A stretch of DNA of 21,455 nucleotides from a virus. The translations under genes were made by a program, and so were the position numbers. The stretch covers positions 1-21,455 of IMG/VR virus record IMGVR_UViG_3300031952_000178; one strand, 5' to 3'. The notes under the pieces were generated by a model. The model did no database searches. It was not told the DNA's origin and was given only the letters and a program-made list of their open reading frames with translations. Below, one piece after another: positions 7,204 through 15,340 of the stretch (positions within the stretch are counted from its first letter, which is position 1; the number at the start of each line of letters is the position of its first letter).

Positions 7204-9510
7204 ATGGCCGACCGGCCTGACCATCTTGCCGACTGGGCTGCCGCCTATCTGGGGGCCGGCCTGAGCGTGCTTCCTGCCCGCCGTAGTGGCGACGAGAAGC
7301 GCGTCGCGCTTCGGTCCTGGAAGCCCTACCAGGGCCGTCTGCCCACGCCGGATGAGGTGCAGGCTTGGTTCAGCAACAGCCACCAGGCGCTCTGCCTGGT
7401 CTGCGGCGGCGTCTCCGCGAACCTGGAGATGCTGGACTTCGACCTCGGTGCGGAGGCGTTCGAGCCGTGGTGCCGGCTGGTCCGCGAGGCCGCGCCCGGC
7501 CTCTTGGAGCGGCTCGTCATCGAGACGACCCCCTCCGGCGGTCGCCATGTCGCTTACCGCGCCGCGGCCGCTGTCTGCGGCAACCTGAAACTCGCCCAGC
7601 GTAAACTGCCCGGAGCCAGCGGCGACCCGGTTGTCATCTGCGGCAAGACCCATGTGCCGCGCAGGGACTCTGGCGGCGCCTGGCATGTGCTGCTGACACT
7701 CGTCGAGACGCGCGGCGAGGGCGGCATATTCCTCTGCGCCCCGTCCGATGGCTACCAACTTGTCCAGGGCGACTTCACGAACCTGCCGGTCCTTTCGACC
7801 GACGAGCGCGAGACGCTCCTCTCGGCCGCCTGGGCGCTGAACGAGGTCGTGCCGGCGCCGGAACCCGTTCCCCACGGCACGGACGCCGGCACCAGGCCCG
7901 GCGACGATTACAGCGCCCGCGGCGACGTGCGGGCCGTTCTCCAGAAGCACGGCTGGACGCTCGCCAAGCCCGGCGAGAATGAATACTGGCGCCGGCCCGG
8001 GAAGACCGCCGGCACCTCGGCCACGCTCAAGGACCGCGTGTTCTACGTCTTCTCGTCGAACGCCGCTCCCTTTGAGCCGCAGAAGGCCTACGCGCCGTTC
8101 ACCGTGTACGCCCTCCTGGAACATGGCGGCGTCTTCGCCAAGGCGGCTGCCGCCCTGCGGGCCGAGGGCTACGGGGCCGACACGCCGGCCCATGACGGCG
8201 TGGACGTCTCGGCCATCGTCGCGGCGGCATCCGACACCGGTGATTCACCGCCGGAGAGCCGCGGGCCGCCCGATCCCGGGCCGGTACCGGACGCGCTGCT
8301 GTACGTCCCCGGTTTCGTCGGCGAGATGATCGACTTCTGCATGGCCAACGCGCCGTACCCCAGCCTCGGCATGGCGTTCTGCGGCGCGCTGGCGATGCAG
8401 GGCCACTTGTGTGGCCGCAAGGCCCGCGATGCGGGCGACCTCAGGACAAACCTATACCTCCTGGCGCTCGCGAGCTCCTCGGCCGGCAAGAACTATCCCC
8501 GGCAGATCAACTCCCACCTGGCCATCGCCGCCAACATCTCCGAGACAGTGCGCGTCCGGTTCGCATCCGGCGAGGGCATCGAGGACCACCTGGACTCCCA
8601 ACCCTGTTCCATGTACCAGACCGACGAGATCGACGGCATCCTCCAGTCGATCAGCCGGGCCCGCGACGCCCGCCACGAGTCCATCATCACGACGCTGCTG
8701 ACGATGTACTCCTCGGCCAACATGATGTACCCGATGCGGTCCAAGGCGGGCAAACAGCCGGCCGGCGTCATCCACCAGCCGCACCTCACCATCTTCGGCA
8801 CCGCCACGCCGGGCCATTACTACGAGGCCCTGTCGCAGCGCATGCTCACCAACGGCTTCTTCGCCCGGATGATCATCGTCGACACGGGCAAGCGCTCGGC
8901 CGGCCAGGACACCGTCCCGGTGGAGAACATGCCCCCGCGCCTGGTGGAGACGGCCTCCTGGTGGGCCGGCTTCCAGCCCGGCGAGCATCGCGGCAACCTC
9001 GTCGGCTTCTTCCCCCAACCCGTCGTCGTGCCGTACAGCGACGACGGCAAACGTGCCGCCGACGACTTTCGCCGCTGCGCCGACGAGGAGTACACCAAGG
9101 CGGAGGACAAGCGCGACGACGTGGCCACGACCGTCTGGGGCCGCGCCAACGAGAACGCCAGGAAGTTGGCGCTCCTCTACGCCTGTAGCGAGAACCACGC
9201 CGAGCCCGAGATCACCCGCGCCGCTGTCGATTGGGCCACCGCCTTCATCGAGCACCAGACCCGGCGGATGTTGTTCATGGCCTTTCAGTACGTGGCCGAG
9301 AACCCGTTCCACAGCGAGTGCCTGAAACTCTTGCGCAAGTTGCGGGAAGCGCCCGGCCGCCAGATGCAGCGACAGCATCTCCTGCGGATCATGCGGTGCA
9401 AGGCCGCAGACTTCGACCAGATGGTCGGGACGCTCTACCAGCAAGGGGACATCATGCCGGTGGACATTCCGACCCGAACCAAGACGGCCCTGGGGTACCG
9501 AATCGCATGA
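7204..9510 (+). CDS. Primase-polymerase / DUF3987 helicase-like replication protein
   Basis: The protein has 768 residues from ATG 7204. Residues ~5-170 match the bifunctional primase/polymerase (PrimPol) domain: GLSVLPARRSGDEKR, the metal-binding LDFD (77-80) and TPSGGRH (109-115). Residues ~365-640 match DUF3987, a P-loop domain. Its Walker A is degenerate (SSSAGKN, 424-430) and an acidic TDEID (473-477) is the likely Walker B. The C-terminal ~60 residues (RQMQRQHLLRIMRCKAADFD) resemble a winged helix. This is the usual layout of a phage replication initiator that primes DNA synthesis and drives or loads the helicase. The large palindrome array begins 15 bp after its stop, so the C-terminal domain is a candidate for binding those repeats. 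The large size matches primase-DUF3987 fusions. Confidence 0.8.
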   Translation: MADRPDHLADWAAAYLGAGLSVLPARRSGDEKRVALRSWKPYQGRLPTPDEVQAWFSNSHQALCLVCGGVSANLEMLDFDLGAEAFEPWCRLVREAAPGLLERLVIETTPSGGRHVAYRAAAAVCGNLKLAQRKLPGASGDPVVICGKTHVPRRDSGGAWHVLLTLVETRGEGGIFLCAPSDGYQLVQGDFTNLPVLSTDERETLLSAAWALNEVVPAPEPVPHGTDAGTRPGDDYSARGDVRAVLQKHGWTLAKPGENEYWRRPGKTAGTSATLKDRVFYVFSSNAAPFEPQKAYAPFTVYALLEHGGVFAKAAAALRAEGYGADTPAHDGVDVSAIVAAASDTGDSPPESRGPPDPGPVPDALLYVPGFVGEMIDFCMANAPYPSLGMAFCGALAMQGHLCGRKARDAGDLRTNLYLLALASSSAGKNYPRQINSHLAIAANISETVRVRFASGEGIEDHLDSQPCSMYQTDEIDGILQSISRARDARHESIITTLLTMYSSANMMYPMRSKAGKQPAGVIHQPHLTIFGTATPGHYYEALSQRMLTNGFFARMIIVDTGKRSAGQDTVPVENMPPRLVETASWWAGFQPGEHRGNLVGFFPQPVVVPYSDDGKRAADDFRRCADEEYTKAEDKRDDVATTVWGRANENARKLALLYACSENHAEPEITRAAVDWATAFIEHQTRRMLFMAFQYVAENPFHSECLKLLRKLREAPGRQMQRQHLLRIMRCKAADFDQMVGTLYQQGDIMPVDIPTRTKTALGYRIA

Positions 9511-9524
9511 AACGGCTCGCACGG

Positions 9525-9783
9525 AATCCTTCCCGAATCCTTCACAATCCTTCACGCGGGCGTGAAGGATTGGGCCTTGGCGGGGCGTTTCCCAGCCCGA
9601 AAGAGGCGGTCCGACCGAATCCTTCACGAATCCTTCACGGGTGTTTTGTGAAGGATTCGGAGCGGCGTAAGCCTAGGAATTATAAGAGAATACACACTCT
9701 CTCTCCCTCTATATCTAATCCTTCACACCCCCCCGCCCGCGCGTGTGCGCCTACGTGCGCGCGTAGGGGGGATGTGAAGGATT
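9525..9783. repeat. Array of nine AATCCTTCAC repeats in three palindromes; candidate replication origin
   Basis: AATCCTTC(A/C)C occurs forward at 9525, 9536, 9546, 9618, 9629 and 9717 and inverted at 9562, 9648 and 9774. Three pairs make palindromes: 9546-9571 (12-bp arms, 2-base loop), 9627-9659 (12-bp arms, 9-base loop) and 9717-9783 (11-bp arms extended by C6/G6, inner CGCGCG-rich stem). Between the second and third is an unusually AT-rich patch (9676-9720) that could melt easily. Iterons beside an initiator gene plus an AT-rich stretch are the classic make-up of an origin. The forward-then-inverted order could alternatively mark single-strand hairpins or operator sites. Confidence 0.55.
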
Positions 9784-10110
9784 GCGCAATAGGTACTTCC
9801 TGCCATTCTGGCAGACAACTGGGCACGCGAATGTGTCGCCAAAGGCAGCAGAGTTTGTTTTGGCGTGAGAAAAACGCCACGTCGGCCCACGGGCCGTCCG
9901 GGGCGGCCCGGTTGGCCGGTCCGGCGCTCCGGTGGCCTCGGTTGCCCTGGGGGCGAACGTGGGCGTCCGGGGGCCGGTCGTGGCGCAGAAAAAAGGCGGT
10001 GGCCGGACGGGGGGACATCCGACCGCCGCACGAACCACGCGGGAACGTCCCGCATGGCATAACGGGATTCTGACCACCGGCAGCTGCAAAGTCAAGCGAA
10101 GGAGAAGAAC
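9784..10110. other. Non-coding stretch between the repeat array and the methyltransferase gene
   Basis: No convincing gene is seen. Small inverted repeats occur: TGCCA/TGGCA near 9801, TGGCGT/ACGCCA near 9859-9882, and GCGGGA/TCCCGC at 10039-10053. The middle is very G-rich and holds two A-runs. An 80-codon frame from ATG 9831 has no ribosome site and an unlikely composition. The end of the stretch carries GAAGGAG (10098-10104), the ribosome site for the GTG at 10111. A promoter for the methyltransferase gene probably lies here, but I cannot place it. Confidence 0.4.
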
Positions 10111-11424
10111 GTGAAGGTTGAACTGCGAAACATCGAGGCCATCCGGCCTTACGAGCAGAACCCCCGCCTGAACGACCAGGCGGTCGAGGCGGTCGCCAAG
10201 AGCCTGCGGGAGTTCGGGTTCCGCCAGCCCATCGTGGTCGACGAGGGCGGTGTCATCATCGTCGGCCACACGCGGTGGAAGGCGGCCCAGAAACTGGGCC
10301 TGAAGCAGGTGCCGGTCCACGTGGCCACGGACCTGACCCCGGCGCAGGTGAAGGCCTACCGCCTGGCCGACAACCAGACGGCCACGCTCGCCGAGTGGAA
10401 CTACGACCTCCTGCCGCTGGAACTGAAGGACCTGGCGGGCATGGACTTCGACCTGTCGCTCCTCGGGTTCTCGCAGGAGGACCTCGGGGCACTGCTCGCC
10501 CCGCCCGGCAACGAGGGCCTCACCGACCCCGACGCCGTGCCGTTGCCGGGCGACGAGGCGATCACGAAGCCGGGCGACCTGTGGATCCTCGGCCAGCACC
10601 GGCTGCTCTGCGGTGACTCCGCCAGCGCCGCCGATGTGGACCGTCTGCTGGCCGGGGCCGCCGTCCACTTGGTCAACACCGACCCACCGTACAACGTCAA
10701 GGTCGAGCCCCGGTCGAACAACGCCATCGCCGCAGGCCTGTCCTCCTTCCCCGCTGCCGACGCCCACCACGGCCTGATGCACCACCAGTCCTTCGACGTG
10801 GCCCGCCAGGGTGCCAAGCACGCGACCACCGAGAAGTTGCGCCCCAAGGACCGGCCGCTGGTCAACGATTTCGTGTCCGACGAGGACTTCGACCGGATGC
10901 TCCGGGCGTGGTTCGGGAACATCGCGCGGGTGCTCGTGCCCGGCCGCTGCTTCTACATCTGGGGCGGGTACGCCAACTGCGGGAACTACCCGCCGGTCCT
11001 GAAGGCCTGCGAGCTCTATTTCTCGCAGGCCATTATCTGGGTGAAGGAGCATCCCGTCCTGACGCGCAAGGACTTCATGGGCAACCATGAGTGGTGCTTC
11101 TACGGGTGGCGCGAGGGGGCGGGACACGAGTTCTTCGGGCCCAACAACGCCACGGATGTCTGGCCGGTCAAGAAGGTGAACCCCGCCAGCATGATTCACC
11201 TTACGGAGAAGCCCGTGGAACTGGCCGTGCGGGCCATCGAGTACTCGTCGCGGCCGGGCGAGAACGTCCTGGACCTCTTCGGCGGATCGGGTTCGACGCT
11301 CATCGGCTGCGAAAAGACAGGGCGGCGCGCCTTCCTGATGGAACTCGATGCCCTGTACTCGGACGTCATCGTCCAGCGCTGGGAGCAGTTCACGGGCAAG
11401 AAAGCCGAGCGGGAGGCGGTCTGA
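10111..11424 (+). CDS. ParB-domain / adenine- or cytosine-N4-methyltransferase fusion
   Basis: The protein has 437 residues from GTG 10111, placed by GAAGGAG 6 bases upstream. The N-terminal ~95 residues are a ParB/sulfiredoxin-like domain (EQNPRLND, then VGHTRWKAAQKLG and YRLADNQTA). The rest is an amino-methyltransferase with DPPY (191-194, the catalytic motif IV) before LDLFGGSGST (387-396, the AdoMet-binding motif I). That order is typical of the beta class acting on exocyclic N6 of adenine or N4 of cytosine. Such fusions are common in phages and usually protect phage DNA against host restriction. An insert of about 60 residues (~200-260) after DPPY may be part of target recognition. The gene overlaps the Mom-like gene by ATGA. 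Confidence 0.85.
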   Translation: MKVELRNIEAIRPYEQNPRLNDQAVEAVAKSLREFGFRQPIVVDEGGVIIVGHTRWKAAQKLGLKQVPVHVATDLTPAQVKAYRLADNQTATLAEWNYDLLPLELKDLAGMDFDLSLLGFSQEDLGALLAPPGNEGLTDPDAVPLPGDEAITKPGDLWILGQHRLLCGDSASAADVDRLLAGAAVHLVNTDPPYNVKVEPRSNNAIAAGLSSFPAADAHHGLMHHQSFDVARQGAKHATTEKLRPKDRPLVNDFVSDEDFDRMLRAWFGNIARVLVPGRCFYIWGGYANCGNYPPVLKACELYFSQAIIWVKEHPVLTRKDFMGNHEWCFYGWREGAGHEFFGPNNATDVWPVKKVNPASMIHLTEKPVELAVRAIEYSSRPGENVLDLFGGSGSTLIGCEKTGRRAFLMELDALYSDVIVQRWEQFTGKKAEREAV

Positions 11425-12233
11425 TGGCGTACCACGTCGAACCCATCCCCCGGTCGTTGATGGCCGCGTTCGTGGCGGCACACCACTACGCCGTCCGCGT
11501 GCCGCCGCACTGCCTGTTGTCCCTGGGGTGCTTCCGGGGGAGCGACCTCGTCGGCGTGGCCTCGTGGGGCTTCGGCGTCCGGCCCCGGCACACCATCCAG
11601 CGGCTGTTCCCGTCGCTGGGAACGGCCGACTACTACGAGCTCAACCGCCTGTGCATGCTGGACTCCGAGCCGCGGAACGGCGAGAGCCGGTTCCTCAGGC
11701 TCTGCCGCGAGTACATCGCCCGTCACGACCCGCGGCGGGTGGTCCTCTTCACCTGGGCCGACGGCATGCGCGGCAAGCCCGGCTACGTCTACCAGGCCGA
11801 CAACTGGCTCTACGGCGGCTTCATCCGCACCGAGTTCTACGTCACGCGCGAGAACGAGGTGGTCCACCCCCGGCAGGTCATCACGCGCTGTGGCCGGCGG
11901 GACCGGGCGTTCACCCGGAGCGTGGGCCTGCGGCGTGTGCGCGGCCGGCAGTTCCGGTACTGCCACTTCCTGTGCGGCCACGCGGTGCGGAAGCGGCTCC
12001 TGCGCGAGTCGCCATTCCGATGGGGCCAGGAGTACCCGAAGAGGGATGACTGCGTCTGGACGTTCGAGGGTGGCGCGGAAACGAGAGCGGCGGAGGGCTC
12101 AAGAGAGAGCCGGGAACCTCCCAGGTTCCAGGGCGTGGGGCAGTTCCACGACGCCGCTCCACTTTTCGCCCAGGTAGAGGCCGAAGACACGCCCAGGCAG
12201 GACGCGCCCGGGCGTGACATGGAGGTGGGTTGA
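11424..12233 (+). CDS. Mom-like DNA-modification protein (GNAT-like fold)
   Basis: The protein has 269 residues from ATG 11424, joined to the methyltransferase gene by an ATGA overlap. The core, residues ~30-190, resembles the Mom family: LSLGCFRGSDLVGVASWGFG, YYELNRLCMLD (E72) and FTWADGMRGKPGYVYQADNW (~109-128). Mu Mom converts adenine in DNA to an N6-carbamoylmethyl form that blocks many restriction enzymes. Mom relatives have an acetyltransferase-like fold. The C-terminal ~50 residues look disordered and basic/acidic mixed. Pairing with a methyltransferase suggests a two-gene DNA-protection cassette. Other GNAT-like functions are possible, and the family call rests on pattern recall. Its stop lies two bases from the stop of the convergent minus-strand gene. 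Confidence 0.6.
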   Translation: MAYHVEPIPRSLMAAFVAAHHYAVRVPPHCLLSLGCFRGSDLVGVASWGFGVRPRHTIQRLFPSLGTADYYELNRLCMLDSEPRNGESRFLRLCREYIARHDPRRVVLFTWADGMRGKPGYVYQADNWLYGGFIRTEFYVTRENEVVHPRQVITRCGRRDRAFTRSVGLRRVRGRQFRYCHFLCGHAVRKRLLRESPFRWGQEYPKRDDCVWTFEGGAETRAAEGSRESREPPRFQGVGQFHDAAPLFAQVEAEDTPRQDAPGRDMEVG

Positions 12234-12235
12234 TG

Positions 12236-13117
12236 CTACTGCTTCTTGCCTGCGTGCTCGTCGGCCAGGGCGAAGTAGCCGCGCAGGCTGACGGCCTTGC
12301 CGTCCCGCGTCTCCTTGACCTCGGCGCGGCGGAACCGGGCGTCCTTGCCCTTCGCGGCGCACTCGCGGATGATCGCGGCGTAAAGCGTGGCCGCAGGCGT
12401 CGCGCCCTTCGTCTGCCAGTAGCCCTTCGCCAAGGCCACCTTCACGATGTCCTGGCAGCCCATGGGCTTGCCGGCCTCCTGGAGGACGCGGACGGCGGCG
12501 TCCAGGCACCCAGCCTTCCGCTCGCCCTTCGCCTTGCCGGCCTTGGCCTTCTTCGCGCGGCCCTTGGCGTCGGCGGCCTTGATGGCGGCGTCGAGCTGCG
12601 GGTCAGGCTTGGCGGCCTTCGCGGCGATCTCCTTGCGCCACGCAGCGACCTTGGCGGCCTTCTCCGCCTTCGCGGTGTCCTTCTGACCCCGGTAGTGGGC
12701 CTCCAGGGGGTTGGTGGTTTCGCCCCCGGCGGCCGCGGGCAGGGCCTTGGTATCCTTGGCCGACCCGGCGGCCGGTTTGGCCCCTGCGCCAACGTGGGCC
12801 GCGGGGGCGGCCTTGCGGCCGGCCTCGGCCCGCAGCCGCTGGGCACTCTTGATGCGGACGGCCTTCCTCGTGGCCAGGTTAGTCGCGTCCCACCCGCCGT
12901 GCGGGTTCTCGCGGTCGATGCGGACCTGGGCCAGCCTGCCCGACACCTTCGCAACGTACTGCCCGCCGACCTTCACCTCGTTCTTCTTCATGACCGTGCT
13001 CCCTTCGCTCTGTGCGACACCGTGGTCCAGGGCCGCGTGCCGGATGGCCTCGTGCTTCGCCGCGATCCGCGCGGCGCGACGTGCGGCCCGCTCTTGTCTC
13101 TGTTTCAGCGTGAGCAT
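12236..13117 (-). CDS. HARE-HTH domain protein with basic Ala/Lys-rich linker
   Basis: The frame of 293 residues starts at ATG 13117 with TAGGAGG upstream. An internal ATG at 12991 (M-K-K-N-E-V) has its own AAGGGAG and may be the main start, giving 251 residues; the first 42 residues are a basic helix. Residues ~43-100 (VGGQYVAKVSGRLAQVRID, then GWDATNLATRKAVRI) look like a small beta-barrel domain. A long Ala/Lys-rich linker follows. Residues ~205-290 (CLDAAVRVLQEAGKPMGCQ, then AALYAAII-like and RGYFAL) match the HARE-HTH winged-helix domain. That domain occurs in RNA polymerase delta, restriction enzymes and chromatin proteins. A DNA-binding or transcription role is likely. It is the most downstream gene of the reverse cassette. 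Confidence 0.7.
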   Translation of the reverse strand: MLTLKQRQERAARRAARIAAKHEAIRHAALDHGVAQSEGSTVMKKNEVKVGGQYVAKVSGRLAQVRIDRENPHGGWDATNLATRKAVRIKSAQRLRAEAGRKAAPAAHVGAGAKPAAGSAKDTKALPAAAGGETTNPLEAHYRGQKDTAKAEKAAKVAAWRKEIAAKAAKPDPQLDAAIKAADAKGRAKKAKAGKAKGERKAGCLDAAVRVLQEAGKPMGCQDIVKVALAKGYWQTKGATPAATLYAAIIRECAAKGKDARFRRAEVKETRDGKAVSLRGYFALADEHAGKKQ

Positions 13118-13126
13118 GGCGACCTC

Positions 13127-13504
13127 CTATCCGCCCGAGGCGGACCCGCCTTGGGCGGGCTTCGTGGGCGGCGCGTACTGCTTGCCGCAGGTGGTGCACT
13201 TGACCGTGCCGTCGCCCTGCCACACGAGGTTGTCGACGTTCCGCTCGCCGCAGCCGGGGCAGGCGTCGGCCTCGGCCACCTCGTCGTCGAGCTGGGCATT
13301 CAGGGCGTCGCGGACGTAGTCCACGTCAACCGACTCGGCGTCATCGACGCCCGCGGCCATGTTCTGGATGATGCCCTCAAGGCCGTCCAGGTCGCGCCCC
13401 AGGGCCCGCTCGACCTCGCGGCACTTCTCCCAGACCTCGTGCAGGGCGGCGACGGCGGCCCGCATGGTCGGGAGGATCGTCTCGGCCTGTTTCGTGGTGA
13501 TCAC
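13127..13504 (-). CDS. Coiled-coil/zinc-ribbon hypothetical protein
   Basis: The protein has 125 residues from GTG 13504, with AAAGGAGG (13511-13518) 6 bases upstream. The first ~75 residues are helical (TILPTMRAAVAALHEVWEKC, then REVERALGRDLDGLEGIIQ). C82-P-G-C85 and C103-T-T-C106 make a classic zinc ribbon, and the last 15 residues are Gly/Pro-rich. The ribbon could bind DNA, RNA or a protein partner. Only 9 bases separate it from the next gene of the reverse cassette. No specific family is recognised. Confidence 0.6.
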   Translation of the reverse strand: MITTKQAETILPTMRAAVAALHEVWEKCREVERALGRDLDGLEGIIQNMAAGVDDAESVDVDYVRDALNAQLDDEVAEADACPGCGERNVDNLVWQGDGTVKCTTCGKQYAPPTKPAQGGSASGG

Positions 13505-13528
13505 AGGTCTCCTCCTTTCGGTTGGGCG

Positions 13529-13945
13529 CTACAGCGCGCGCTCGATGGTCTCAATCTCGGCGCCCCGCAGGGCGGCCAGGACCTCCAGCAGGCCGCTGCG
13601 GACGCGGTACAGGTCGCCCGCCGCGTCCCAGTTGCCCGGCTCGGCCTGGGCCGCCCTCGCGTGCTTCGCCAGTTCCTGCCCGAGCCAGTCCATCAGGCGG
13701 TCGATGTCCCGCCGCCGCTCGGCGTACATCTCAGCAGCCGTCTGGCCGTCCTTCGTCGGCGCGGCCACGCCCGTATCGAGGAACGCGAGCCACGCCTCGC
13801 GCGTCATCGGCTCGTGGGCCTGGATGCTGCCGGGCCGCTCGACGCGCCACAGCCGCGGGTCTTCGGGGTCGCGCCTCACCTTCACGGTCTTCCACCGGCT
13901 CTTGGCCAGGCGGTTCGCCTCAGGGATCGTGAGGACCTTCGCCAT
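13529..13945 (-). CDS. Hypothetical protein of the reverse cassette
   Basis: The protein has 138 residues from ATG 13945 (MAKVLTIPEANRLAKSRW), with AAAGGAG just upstream. An upstream in-frame start would pass through a 9-bp inverted repeat and is not favoured. The N-terminus mixes beta and basic residues (KTVKVRRDPEDPRLWRVERP). The rest is helical (AEMYAERRRDIDRLMDWLG, then ELAKHARAAQAEPGNWDAA). No cysteine cluster or membrane segment is seen and no family is recognised. It is transcribed opposite to the replication genes. Confidence 0.6.
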   Translation of the reverse strand: MAKVLTIPEANRLAKSRWKTVKVRRDPEDPRLWRVERPGSIQAHEPMTREAWLAFLDTGVAAPTKDGQTAAEMYAERRRDIDRLMDWLGQELAKHARAAQAEPGNWDAAGDLYRVRSGLLEVLAALRGAEIETIERAL

Positions 13946-13968
13946 CGCCTTCTCCTTTCCTGGTTCGC

Positions 13969-14004
13969 ATTCCCATGCGTCTATGCTGATCAGGGCATGG
14001 GAAT
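13969..14004 (-). promoter_or_regulatory. 9-bp inverted repeat and shared CATGCCCTGATC motif
   Basis: ATTCCCATG (13969-13977) and CATGGGAAT (13996-14004) are perfect inverted arms 18 bases apart, 24 bases upstream of the gene starting at 13945. On the minus strand CATGCCCTGATC occurs here (13988-13999), and again before the gene starting at 15181. The repeats may be an operator or a leader hairpin. Confidence 0.35.
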
Positions 14005-14050
14005 CGCCCCCAGGCAAGGCGGATTCCGGAATATTCCGGCCGCCGGCCGC

Positions 14051-14404
14051 CTACCGCTTCCGGCGGCCCAGGGGCGTGACCTCGAAGTCCCAGAACCAGT
14101 ACTCGCCCTCCTTGTTCCTGGCGATGGCGGGCGCCTGGCCTCGCGTCGGCCGGACGCGGTAGAGCCACCCCGCGTCGTACTCGGCCTTGGTGACGATGCC
14201 GTCGCACTCCTCGGCGAAATGGTCGCTCCTCACGTGGACCCGCGTGCCGTTCGCCAGGCGCGGCGGGCGGGTTTCGGCTTCGCGGAACTTCACCCGGTCG
14301 CACTTGGCGCACCGCACGGCCCGCCGGCCGTCAGCCAGGAGCGTGCCGCCGCACCAGTGGGTGCCTACCGTCCGTCGGTTCTGTCGCCTGCTCTTCCTGG
14401 CCAT
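14051..14404 (-). CDS. Small zinc-binding hypothetical protein
   Basis: The protein has 117 residues from ATG 14404, with GAGGAGA upstream. Residues H16, C18, C32 and C35 (HWCGG, then CAKC) could bind one zinc ion. The N-terminus is very basic (MARKSRRQNRRT), as in nucleic-acid-binding proteins. The C-terminal half is beta-rich (GTRVHVRSDHFAEECDGIV, then AGWLYRVRPTRGQ). It may be a small SH3-like barrel, but that is a guess. It is one of six same-direction genes with good ribosome sites, and its function is unknown. Confidence 0.6.
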   Translation of the reverse strand: MARKSRRQNRRTVGTHWCGGTLLADGRRAVRCAKCDRVKFREAETRPPRLANGTRVHVRSDHFAEECDGIVTKAEYDAGWLYRVRPTRGQAPAIARNKEGEYWFWDFEVTPLGRRKR

Positions 14405-14473
14405 CGCATCTCTCCTCGCGGCGGAATTGCCGGGCTGGGGGCCGCTGGCGGGCGGCCCGTCGCCGGGTCCCTC

Positions 14474-14902
14474 CTACCGGCCCGTGTGCTCCACCAGGAC
14501 GCCGCCATCGATCAGGTTCCAGCCCCACGCATCGCCCCAGGCGGCAGGCGGCCGGATGGTCGCCAGGACCTCGTCGGTGCCGGTCCGGCGAAGTTCCACC
14601 TTGCGGCCAACCTGGGTGGCGTACCAGGCGGGGGCCTCGGTGCGGCAGACAAGGCGCCGGGGCCTGGGGTTCACCACCCGCATCCAGGGGATGTCGTCGC
14701 GCTGGGCGGTGTCGAAGCTGTTGTTGAAGAACTGCGGGTCGGGGCCGTTGCCCGACCAGTGGCAGGTGCAGACGTAGCGCGGGAAGTCCGGCTCGAGGGT
14801 AATGCGGTCGATGACCCACTCGTAGCCGCCGCGGATGACCACGTCGCCCACCCGCAGGCGCTTACCCATCACGTTCTCGGTGTTGCGTGCCGCCGTCTTC
14901 AT
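14474..14902 (-). CDS. Hypothetical protein of the reverse cassette
   Basis: The protein has 142 residues from ATG 14902, with AAGGAGC upstream. An internal M-G-K at residue 12 is an alternative start. The central part is beta-rich (RVGDVVIRGGYEWVIDRI) and the middle (YVCTCHWSGNGPDPQFFNNS) has two cysteines and a histidine. The segment TQVGRKVELRRTGTDEVLAT suggests a small beta fold. The protein ends with GWNLIDGGVLVEHTGR. No family is recognised. The 69-bp gap to the next gene downstream contains no obvious signal. Confidence 0.55.
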   Translation of the reverse strand: MKTAARNTENVMGKRLRVGDVVIRGGYEWVIDRITLEPDFPRYVCTCHWSGNGPDPQFFNNSFDTAQRDDIPWMRVVNPRPRRLVCRTEAPAWYATQVGRKVELRRTGTDEVLATIRPPAAWGDAWGWNLIDGGVLVEHTGR

Positions 14903-14926
14903 GGTCTGCTCCTTGTTCTGGTCGCC

Positions 14927-15181
14927 TCAGTCGGCGAAGTTCTGGATGGCCCGCAGGTAGTCGGCCACGTCGCCCGCGGTGCCCTGGTATCCGTCGAGTT
15001 CCCGCTGGAGCCGGGCGGCGGCGTAGCGTTGGCTGCCTTCGTCGCGGGTATCGACGTTCAGGTCGAAGACGCCCGCCGCCCCGTCGCCTCGAATGCCGAT
15101 GACCACCTTGCCCGCCACCTCGCGCCGGGCGATGTTCGCCCAGCCCTTCGTGCCCTCGACCGTCATTCGCGTGGCCTTCAT
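14927..15181 (-). CDS. Small hypothetical protein, first gene of the reverse cassette
   Basis: The protein has 84 residues from ATG 15181, with AAAGGAG upstream. The sequence is a short beta-rich N-terminal half (KVVIGIRGDGAAGVFDLNVD) followed by helices (RYAAARLQRELDGYQGTAGD, then VADYLRAIQNFAD). It is probably the promoter-proximal gene of the minus-strand operon. No family is recognised. Its size and position fit a phage accessory or regulatory protein. Confidence 0.6.
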   Translation of the reverse strand: MKATRMTVEGTKGWANIARREVAGKVVIGIRGDGAAGVFDLNVDTRDEGSQRYAAARLQRELDGYQGTAGDVADYLRAIQNFAD

Positions 15182-15340
15182 TGGCGTCTCCTTTCGCTGT
15201 TTGCCTTACCACGTGGATCAGGGCATGTTTTCGGCCCGGAATCAAGGTGAAATATGGACGGGACGGCATAATTCGGTCGCCCGTATGTCTAGGAAAGGGC
15301 GCTAGTTACGGCGATGGGCCGAAATGGGGAAAGATTTCCG
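15182..15340. promoter_or_regulatory. Divergent intergenic region between the reverse cassette and the packaging genes
   Basis: This is the only gap that separates two divergent operons, so promoters for both are expected here. On the minus strand it has CATGCCCTGATC (around 15216-15227) and the palindrome CCACGTGG. An AT-rich patch (ATAATTC near 15268) could be a -10 region, but no clear -35/-10 pair can be fixed. No gene longer than about 30 codons fits apart from upstream extensions of the 15341 gene. Confidence 0.45.

Follow-up and report, generated by a model that had tools for sequence, protein, structure and literature searches.

A candidate replication origin in PrimPol-DUF3987 phages whose repeats co-vary with the winged helix of the adjacent initiator

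In the SaPI Rep/ori and SCCmec Cch2 systems, short iterons lie directly downstream of the initiator helicase gene and are read by the C-terminal domain of that helicase (Ubeda 2007, as relayed in PMC7581432); binding as two hexamers is proposed for this type of system. The origin of pRN1 is one 100-nt stem-loop 3' of the PrimPol gene with no iteron structure, and a stem-loop origin 3' of the PrimPol gene has been suggested for Bordetella phage BIP-1 (PMC4234260). In phage P4 one protein, alpha, primes, unwinds and binds origin repeats via a winged helix (Yeo 2002, as summarized in PMC4234260), while RSF1010 places a priming hairpin beside iterons (ssiA/ssiB with RepB'; PMC4234260). For the iteron-related domain of geminivirus Rep, a residue-to-base correspondence was derived by comparing related viruses (Arguello-Astorga 2001, in the account given by PMC12548392).

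The locus analysed here, 9525-9783, belongs to a 21.5-kb IMG/VR fragment from a tailed phage or prophage (the window, meaning the whole stretch of DNA that was analysed). The features of the locus and of the gene preceding it are as follows:

7204-9510, plus strand: initiator gene, 768 aa, with PrimPol at residues ~12-187, an MCM-like AAA+ helicase (DUF3987) at ~370-690 and a C-terminal winged helix at ~698-768 (Pfam, PHROG DNA primase, AlphaFold models, Foldseek)
9295-9507, plus strand: coding sequence of the C-terminal winged helix, in which residues 722-727 (strand 1/helix 2 start) and 757-764 (wing) track the repeat (AlphaFold, wHTH matches, column mutual information)
9525-9571, no strand: repeat cluster 1, copies at 9525, 9536 and 9546 (plus) and 9562 (minus), palindrome 9545-9572 (relatives at equal offsets 14> 25> 35> 53<)
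9618-9657, no strand: repeat cluster 2, copies at 9618 and 9629 (plus) and 9648 (minus), palindrome 9615-9660 (copy and palindrome searches, offsets in relatives)
9675-9716, no strand: candidate unwinding element, an AT-rich patch with a CT tract at 9694-9709 (CT tract and AT content in homologous flanks)
9717-9783, no strand: repeat cluster 3, copies at 9717 (plus) and 9774 (minus) around a GC-rich palindrome (core 9727-9773), a candidate priming hairpin (palindrome search, relatives, folding energy)

The earlier designation of the 7204-9510 gene as PrimPol-DUF3987 was confirmed by Pfam, with E 1.6e-9 for Prim-Pol and E 3e-12 for DUF3987. In Foldseek comparisons the N-terminus of the full model matched ORF904 PrimPol (E 1.3e-6), and the AAA+ region that precedes the winged helix was MCM-like (E 3.5e-5); ORF904 was also the sole sequence relative in the PDB (profile E 3.7e-4). 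Walker A-like SSSAGK and Walker B-like QTDEID motifs are conserved in sequence, and the analysis suggests that DUF3987 may be an MCM-like origin helicase. The C-terminal 70 residues were modelled by AlphaFold as a winged helix (pLDDT 89) with wHTH matches up to Z 12, MarR and Zalpha among them; the P4 alpha origin-binding domain was not among the structure matches listed for this domain, which has no bearing on membership.

The first-pass annotation had described nine copies of a 10-mer, six forward and three inverted with the first one base off, starting 15 bp past the stop of the PrimPol-DUF3987 gene and forming three large hairpins, with an AT-rich patch between hairpins two and three. Each of these points was borne out. 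A copy search placed AATCCTTCAC at 9525, 9536, 9546, 9618, 9629 and 9717 on the plus strand and at 9562, 9648 and 9774 on the minus strand, the copy at 9525 being AATCCTTCCC, with one mismatch; its first base is the 15th past the primase stop codon (TGA, 9508-9510). The palindrome arms are 13 nt (9545-9557/9560-9572, perfect), 16 nt (9615-9630/9645-9660, 94%) and 18 nt (9717-9734/9766-9783, 94%) long. The AT-rich patch, ~9675-9716, lies between palindromes 2 and 3, so that repeats stand on both its sides. Two elements were absent from that annotation: the distinct GC-rich core of palindrome 3 and the CT tract, which is part of a conserved element. Iteron origins have many copies of a short repeat in a compact region and an AT-rich region adjoining them; here there are nine copies within 260 bp and the AT/CT patch, whose unwinding role is putative. 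No exact AATCCTTCAC copy occurs outside the array in the 21,455-bp record, in the whole of which 20 matches with at most two mismatches were found versus 8.6 expected, a number reached in 0 of 100 shuffles. The DNA of the array has a folding energy z of -8.2 relative to mononucleotide shuffles. A DNA similarity search of the array against GenBank phages gave no meaningful match, and cumulative GC skew, a check named earlier, was uninformative: two long records had no more than weak local minima close to the array.

Annotated genes on the plus strand of the window (Pfam, PHROG) encode a sigma-like factor, DUF669, RusA, a helicase, PrimPol-DUF3987, a ParB-N methylase, a Mom-like protein, a gpA-type terminase, a portal and a capsid/protease. 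Downstream of the array is a second conserved block (9789-9862; TAGGTACTTCC...GGAACAG...CAGAGTTTGTT), which many relatives also have, irrespective of repeat type; a simple pattern for it was present in 48 of 74 loci, and its role is possibly packaging or regulation. At 10111-12233 the ParB_N-N6/N4 methylase gene overlaps a Mom-family frame (PF25680, E 6.8e-40), and the two, beside the proposed origin, form a candidate DNA-modification pair. Between the Mom-like gene and the terminase, a 1006-aa open frame (12230-15250) had no Pfam or PHROG match.

Relatives of the locus were sought by repeat pattern and by initiator. Searching 2.9 M virus contigs for the 10-mer in two inverted copies yielded eight stretches, one of them a near relative with an 89% identical primase. 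Four more (L014-L017) had multi-copy arrays, each directly following the 3' end of a PrimPol-DUF3987 homologue (50-57% identity), and the lone palindromes without a PrimPol gene in L012, L013 and L018 were set aside as chance. A genome scan for ATCCTTCAC pairs gave at least 119 loci, most of which chance or unrelated tandem repeats could account for, and an AT/palindrome pattern scan returned two contigs only, both known already. In the primase-based search most relatives with usable flanks, from virus contigs and from prophages of Planctomycetota and Verrucomicrobiota, carried an array at the equal place with differing repeats, among them AATCCTTCCC, AATCCGTCAC, AATCCGTCAG, CTTCCTTCAC, CTTCTTTCAC, GTTTCACCC, CGGTTTTCTC and others. 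Automatic calling detected a repeat in both orientations at 40 of the 43 first-set loci and at 66 of the 86 later ones, and in four records of 45-58 kb the repeat matches fell essentially in one cluster. No clear array was found on these terms in relatives L237, L239, L284 and L290, and many distant relatives had none either. The proposal that this is a replication origin had been tied to the presence of the repeats beside homologous primase genes; most close relatives of the primase carry an array there, which supports it, and the tracking of the initiator's DNA-binding domain by the repeat type, described below, supports it further.

With a cut-off of E <= 1e-30, relatives were found in genomes of Planctomycetota (35 of 392, up to 71% identity), Verrucomicrobiota (10 of 195), Acidobacteriota (1 of 199) and Pseudomonadota (11 of 299, at 27-30% identity only), the phylum labels being taken from the titles of centre genome records. 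Among eight cultured phages with distant homologues, three, namely Sphingomonas phage Kharn (L339), Stenotrophomonas phage Bhz54 (L340) and Sinorhizobium phage AP-16-3 (L338), carry an array directly 3' of the primase with both orientations, AT patches and other repeats (GTTGTATA, GGGGGATAGG and a TGGAATT type); no such array was found in the other five.

Copy offsets after the stop codon are near-identical between phages though the spacers are unrelated, as these examples illustrate (>, forward; <, inverted):

Window: 14> 25> 35> 53< 107> 118> 139< 206> 265<
L139 and L143: 14> 25> 35> 53< 98> 108> 128< 139< 197> 261< 274<
L142, of another repeat class: 14> 25> 35> 53< 110> 130< 188> 252< 265<

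Neighbouring copies in one direction mostly stand 10-11 bp from each other. In the relatives, an AT-rich stretch ending in a CT tract separates clusters 2 and 3; by a simple pattern the tract occurs in 95 of 126 homologous flanks versus 14 of 540 control stretches, and the 40 bp upstream of it average 64% AT versus a flank mean of 44%. The GC-rich palindrome then follows in most relatives, whatever the repeat type, and its segment folds moderately low (median z -2.2 over 93 loci, versus mononucleotide shuffles). The CTT-type and GTTTCAC-type repeat classes have their own, less regular layouts. Downstream genes vary between loci; the architecture of the array is constant.

Sequence comparison showed that the repeats change together with the C-terminal winged helix of the PrimPol-helicase beside them, whereas the remainder of that protein shows no such co-variation. 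Over 43 loci with hand-curated repeat consensuses, repeat distance correlated with winged-helix distance (r 0.76; partial Mantel 0.77, p 2e-4) versus a partial Mantel of -0.19 for DUF3987 distance, and after dereplication the values were 0.84 for the winged helix versus -0.13 for the helicase. Automatic repeat calling gave 0.67 versus 0.01 in the first set and 0.49 (p 5e-4) versus -0.02 in the later loci; the second virus set alone gave 0.38, with a weak helicase signal of 0.20. Mean association per column, measured as mutual information, was 0.48 in the winged helix versus 0.03 in the helicase. The top columns (residues 724, 762, 725, 723, 727, 722, 739 and 760) all fall within the winged helix; in the model they map to the beginning of helix 2, to helix 3, and to the wing with the strand that follows it.

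The region 9525-9783 is thus very probably a phage replication origin, with iterons that would be read by the initiator's own winged helix and an AT patch that would melt. Each repeat copy would be bound as duplex DNA by one winged helix, and the copies that flank the AT/CT patch on either side would assemble MCM-like helicase rings. By analogy with the SaPI, P4 and pRN1 systems, we infer that the patch would melt after ring assembly, that the PrimPol domain would prime on the strands so exposed, with the GC-rich palindrome as a possible site, and that forks would then leave the origin.

An unlikely but not negligible alternative is that the primase recognises the palindromes as extruded single-strand hairpins, in the manner of RSF1010 ssi or the pRN1 stem-loop, and not the duplex repeats. 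The palindromes are strong, the GC-rich one is kept under every repeat type, and for pRN1 a stem-loop adjoining the 3' end of the PrimPol gene is required (PMC4234260). Direct copies at 10-11 bp spacing, however, suit duplex binding on one face, and the repeat sequence varies with a winged helix, a type of fold that in most cases recognises double-stranded DNA. The earlier suggestion of action through single-strand hairpins found no supporting evidence. Near base-exact copy positions among random spacers favour duplex binding; the hairpin mode may apply to the GC palindrome alone.

It is less likely again that the array is an operator, at which the winged helix controls downstream transcription or senses the level of initiator while replication starts elsewhere. 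Some phage initiators also serve as regulators, and winged-helix binding to an operator would yield identical co-variation. Against this, the array lies 3' of the initiator gene and has no internal promoter of the sigma-70-like type, the only type searched, its architecture stays constant over differing downstream genes, and a repeat-flanked AT/CT patch suits an origin better.

Recombination of adjacent DNA could produce co-variation by hitch-hiking with no binding at all, as the winged-helix coding sequence and the array adjoin; this we regard as very improbable. The fraction of shared 7-mers in spacers was 0.020 within a repeat class, 0.011 between classes and 0.008 in shuffled sequence, so that within-class spacers are barely above chance, yet repeats match exactly, are identical within an array and change in concert in all copies. 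Because the spacers are near random, linkage alone is insufficient for the co-variation, the strongest part of which is limited to few residues, and selection for a match between domain and repeat would be the simplest reading. Least credible is that the hairpins, which directly follow the stop codon, belong to a transcription terminator or to an RNA element closing the primase gene. The array has no terminator-like site (the one such site lies outside it, on the other strand), and the terminator reading was dropped; an Rfam search of the window gave no match, and an element acting as RNA would not be expected to co-vary with a winged helix.

Within the favoured reading of an iteron origin bound by the winged helix, the few residues with which the repeat changes over ~70 related phages and prophages fall into two parts. 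At 723-725, RQH or HQ occurs with CCTTC, R[RN]x with CCGTC and HS with (C)TTTC, while in the wing TKT occurs with AAT, GR with CTT, PRxG with G(TTTCAC) and KPG with GATTCAC. This comparison shows the inner half of the repeat following residues 723-725 and the outer half following the wing. A tally by a fixed rule took in arrays that hold three or more copies of a named motif, the counts not being independent events because the sampled proteins are related:

RQH with TKT: AATCCTTC, 8 of 8
R[RN]x with TKT: AATCCGTC, 10 of 10
HQ with GR: CTTCCTTC, 7 of 7
HS with GR: CTTCTTTC, 25 of 26
HS with TKT: AATCTTTC, 5 of 5
HS with PRxG/KPG: GTTTCAC 13, GATTCAC 3

No locus of the first set combined HS with TKT. 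Those that turned up in the second scan carry AATCTTTC, which is what joining the two halves would give; the agreement is strong but is no blind prediction, because the wing rule was noticed on second-set data. A prediction written beforehand for far more distant relatives was right for L307 and L308, right in the left half for L318 and wrong for L309; the flanks of L307-L309 had already been seen, so that L318 and later-retrieved loci are the strictly unseen ones, and many other loci of this prediction had no recognisable array. The two-part rule weakens outside the initiator family. Five loci (L255, L256, L258, L278 and L280) have a divergent winged helix with an MPxW/MPAW motif and other repeats, for example AACTCATTG and ACCTATTG, which implies that the code has further letters.

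Related prophages of one genome can differ in their repeats. Three in genome G373 carry AATCCGTC (L288), CTTCCTTC (L289) and CTTCTTTC (L291), and two in G353 carry GATTCACC (L285) and GGTTTTCT (L286), each repeat fitting its own domain. The repeats of L168, L171 and L175 also differ; the record names suggest one isolate (IMG 2824432718), and the shared host is taken from the name. Because prophages of one genome carry different repeats, a host protein as the reader is argued against. G353, one Planctomycetota chromosome, holds four PrimPol-DUF3987 relatives (L284-L287), three with arrays; L284 has no recognisable array though its domain predicts CTTCTTTC. Since the gene ends with the winged-helix coding sequence and the presumed target of that domain comes directly after, domain and origin would be exchangeable in one recombination event, which would account for closely related helicase domains with different domain/repeat pairs. 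We consider it probable, with less assurance than the origin itself, that a two-part recognition code operates, with helix-2 residues 723-725 specifying the inner half of the iteron and the wing its outer half, and that domain and array form an exchangeable cassette by which co-resident prophages keep separate replication specificities.

The analysis gives the C-terminal domain of PrimPol-DUF3987 proteins a likely role. It predicts where replication starts, and by which initiator, in a large group of uncultured Planctomycetota and Verrucomicrobiota phages and prophages, and these form a natural collection from whose sequences the DNA specificity of a winged helix can be read. Exchangeable initiator/origin pairs, if true, would account for how related prophages in one cell avoid cross-initiation. 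The arrays beside the primase genes of the cultured phages Kharn, Bhz54 and AP-16-3 make the idea testable now.

An iteron origin downstream of its initiator and read by the C-terminal domain is already known from SaPI and SCCmec. Searches of the literature with the repeat letters gave unrelated text only, and no description of this origin type in DUF3987 phages was found in the literature searched, whose coverage left out most subscription journals; as far as that literature shows, the PrimPol-DUF3987 phage origin family, its conserved geometry and its two-part specificity pattern are new. The first-pass annotation had held the forward-forward-inverted order to be unlike ordinary iterons, which was right in part, but mixed orientation around an AT patch 3' of a primase/helicase gene resembles SaPI-type origins. 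As in SaPI and SCCmec, the iterons of the window and of most close relatives lie directly downstream of the initiator helicase gene, and where the C-terminal domain reads the iterons in SaPI, here it tracks the repeat in sequence comparison and may read it. The likeness to SaPI is one of description: here the initiator is a fused AEP PrimPol and MCM-like AAA+ protein, the hosts are mainly Planctomycetota, and the repeats stand in fixed palindromic clusters with a GC-rich palindrome. P4 alpha has a Toprim primase, unlike the Prim-Pol (AEP) found here. RSF1010, again likened by description, offers a model for the GC-rich palindrome as a priming hairpin, though it uses three separate proteins. 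With geminivirus Rep the locus shares an initiator/iteron correspondence obtained by comparison, although that Rep is an unrelated rolling-circle protein of plant ssDNA viruses. Homology links the initiator to ORF904 of pRN1, which likewise combines AEP PrimPol, helicase and C-terminal winged helix with an origin immediately 3'; the pRN1 helicase is SF3, and in place of its single stem-loop without iterons the phage locus has a nine-copy array.
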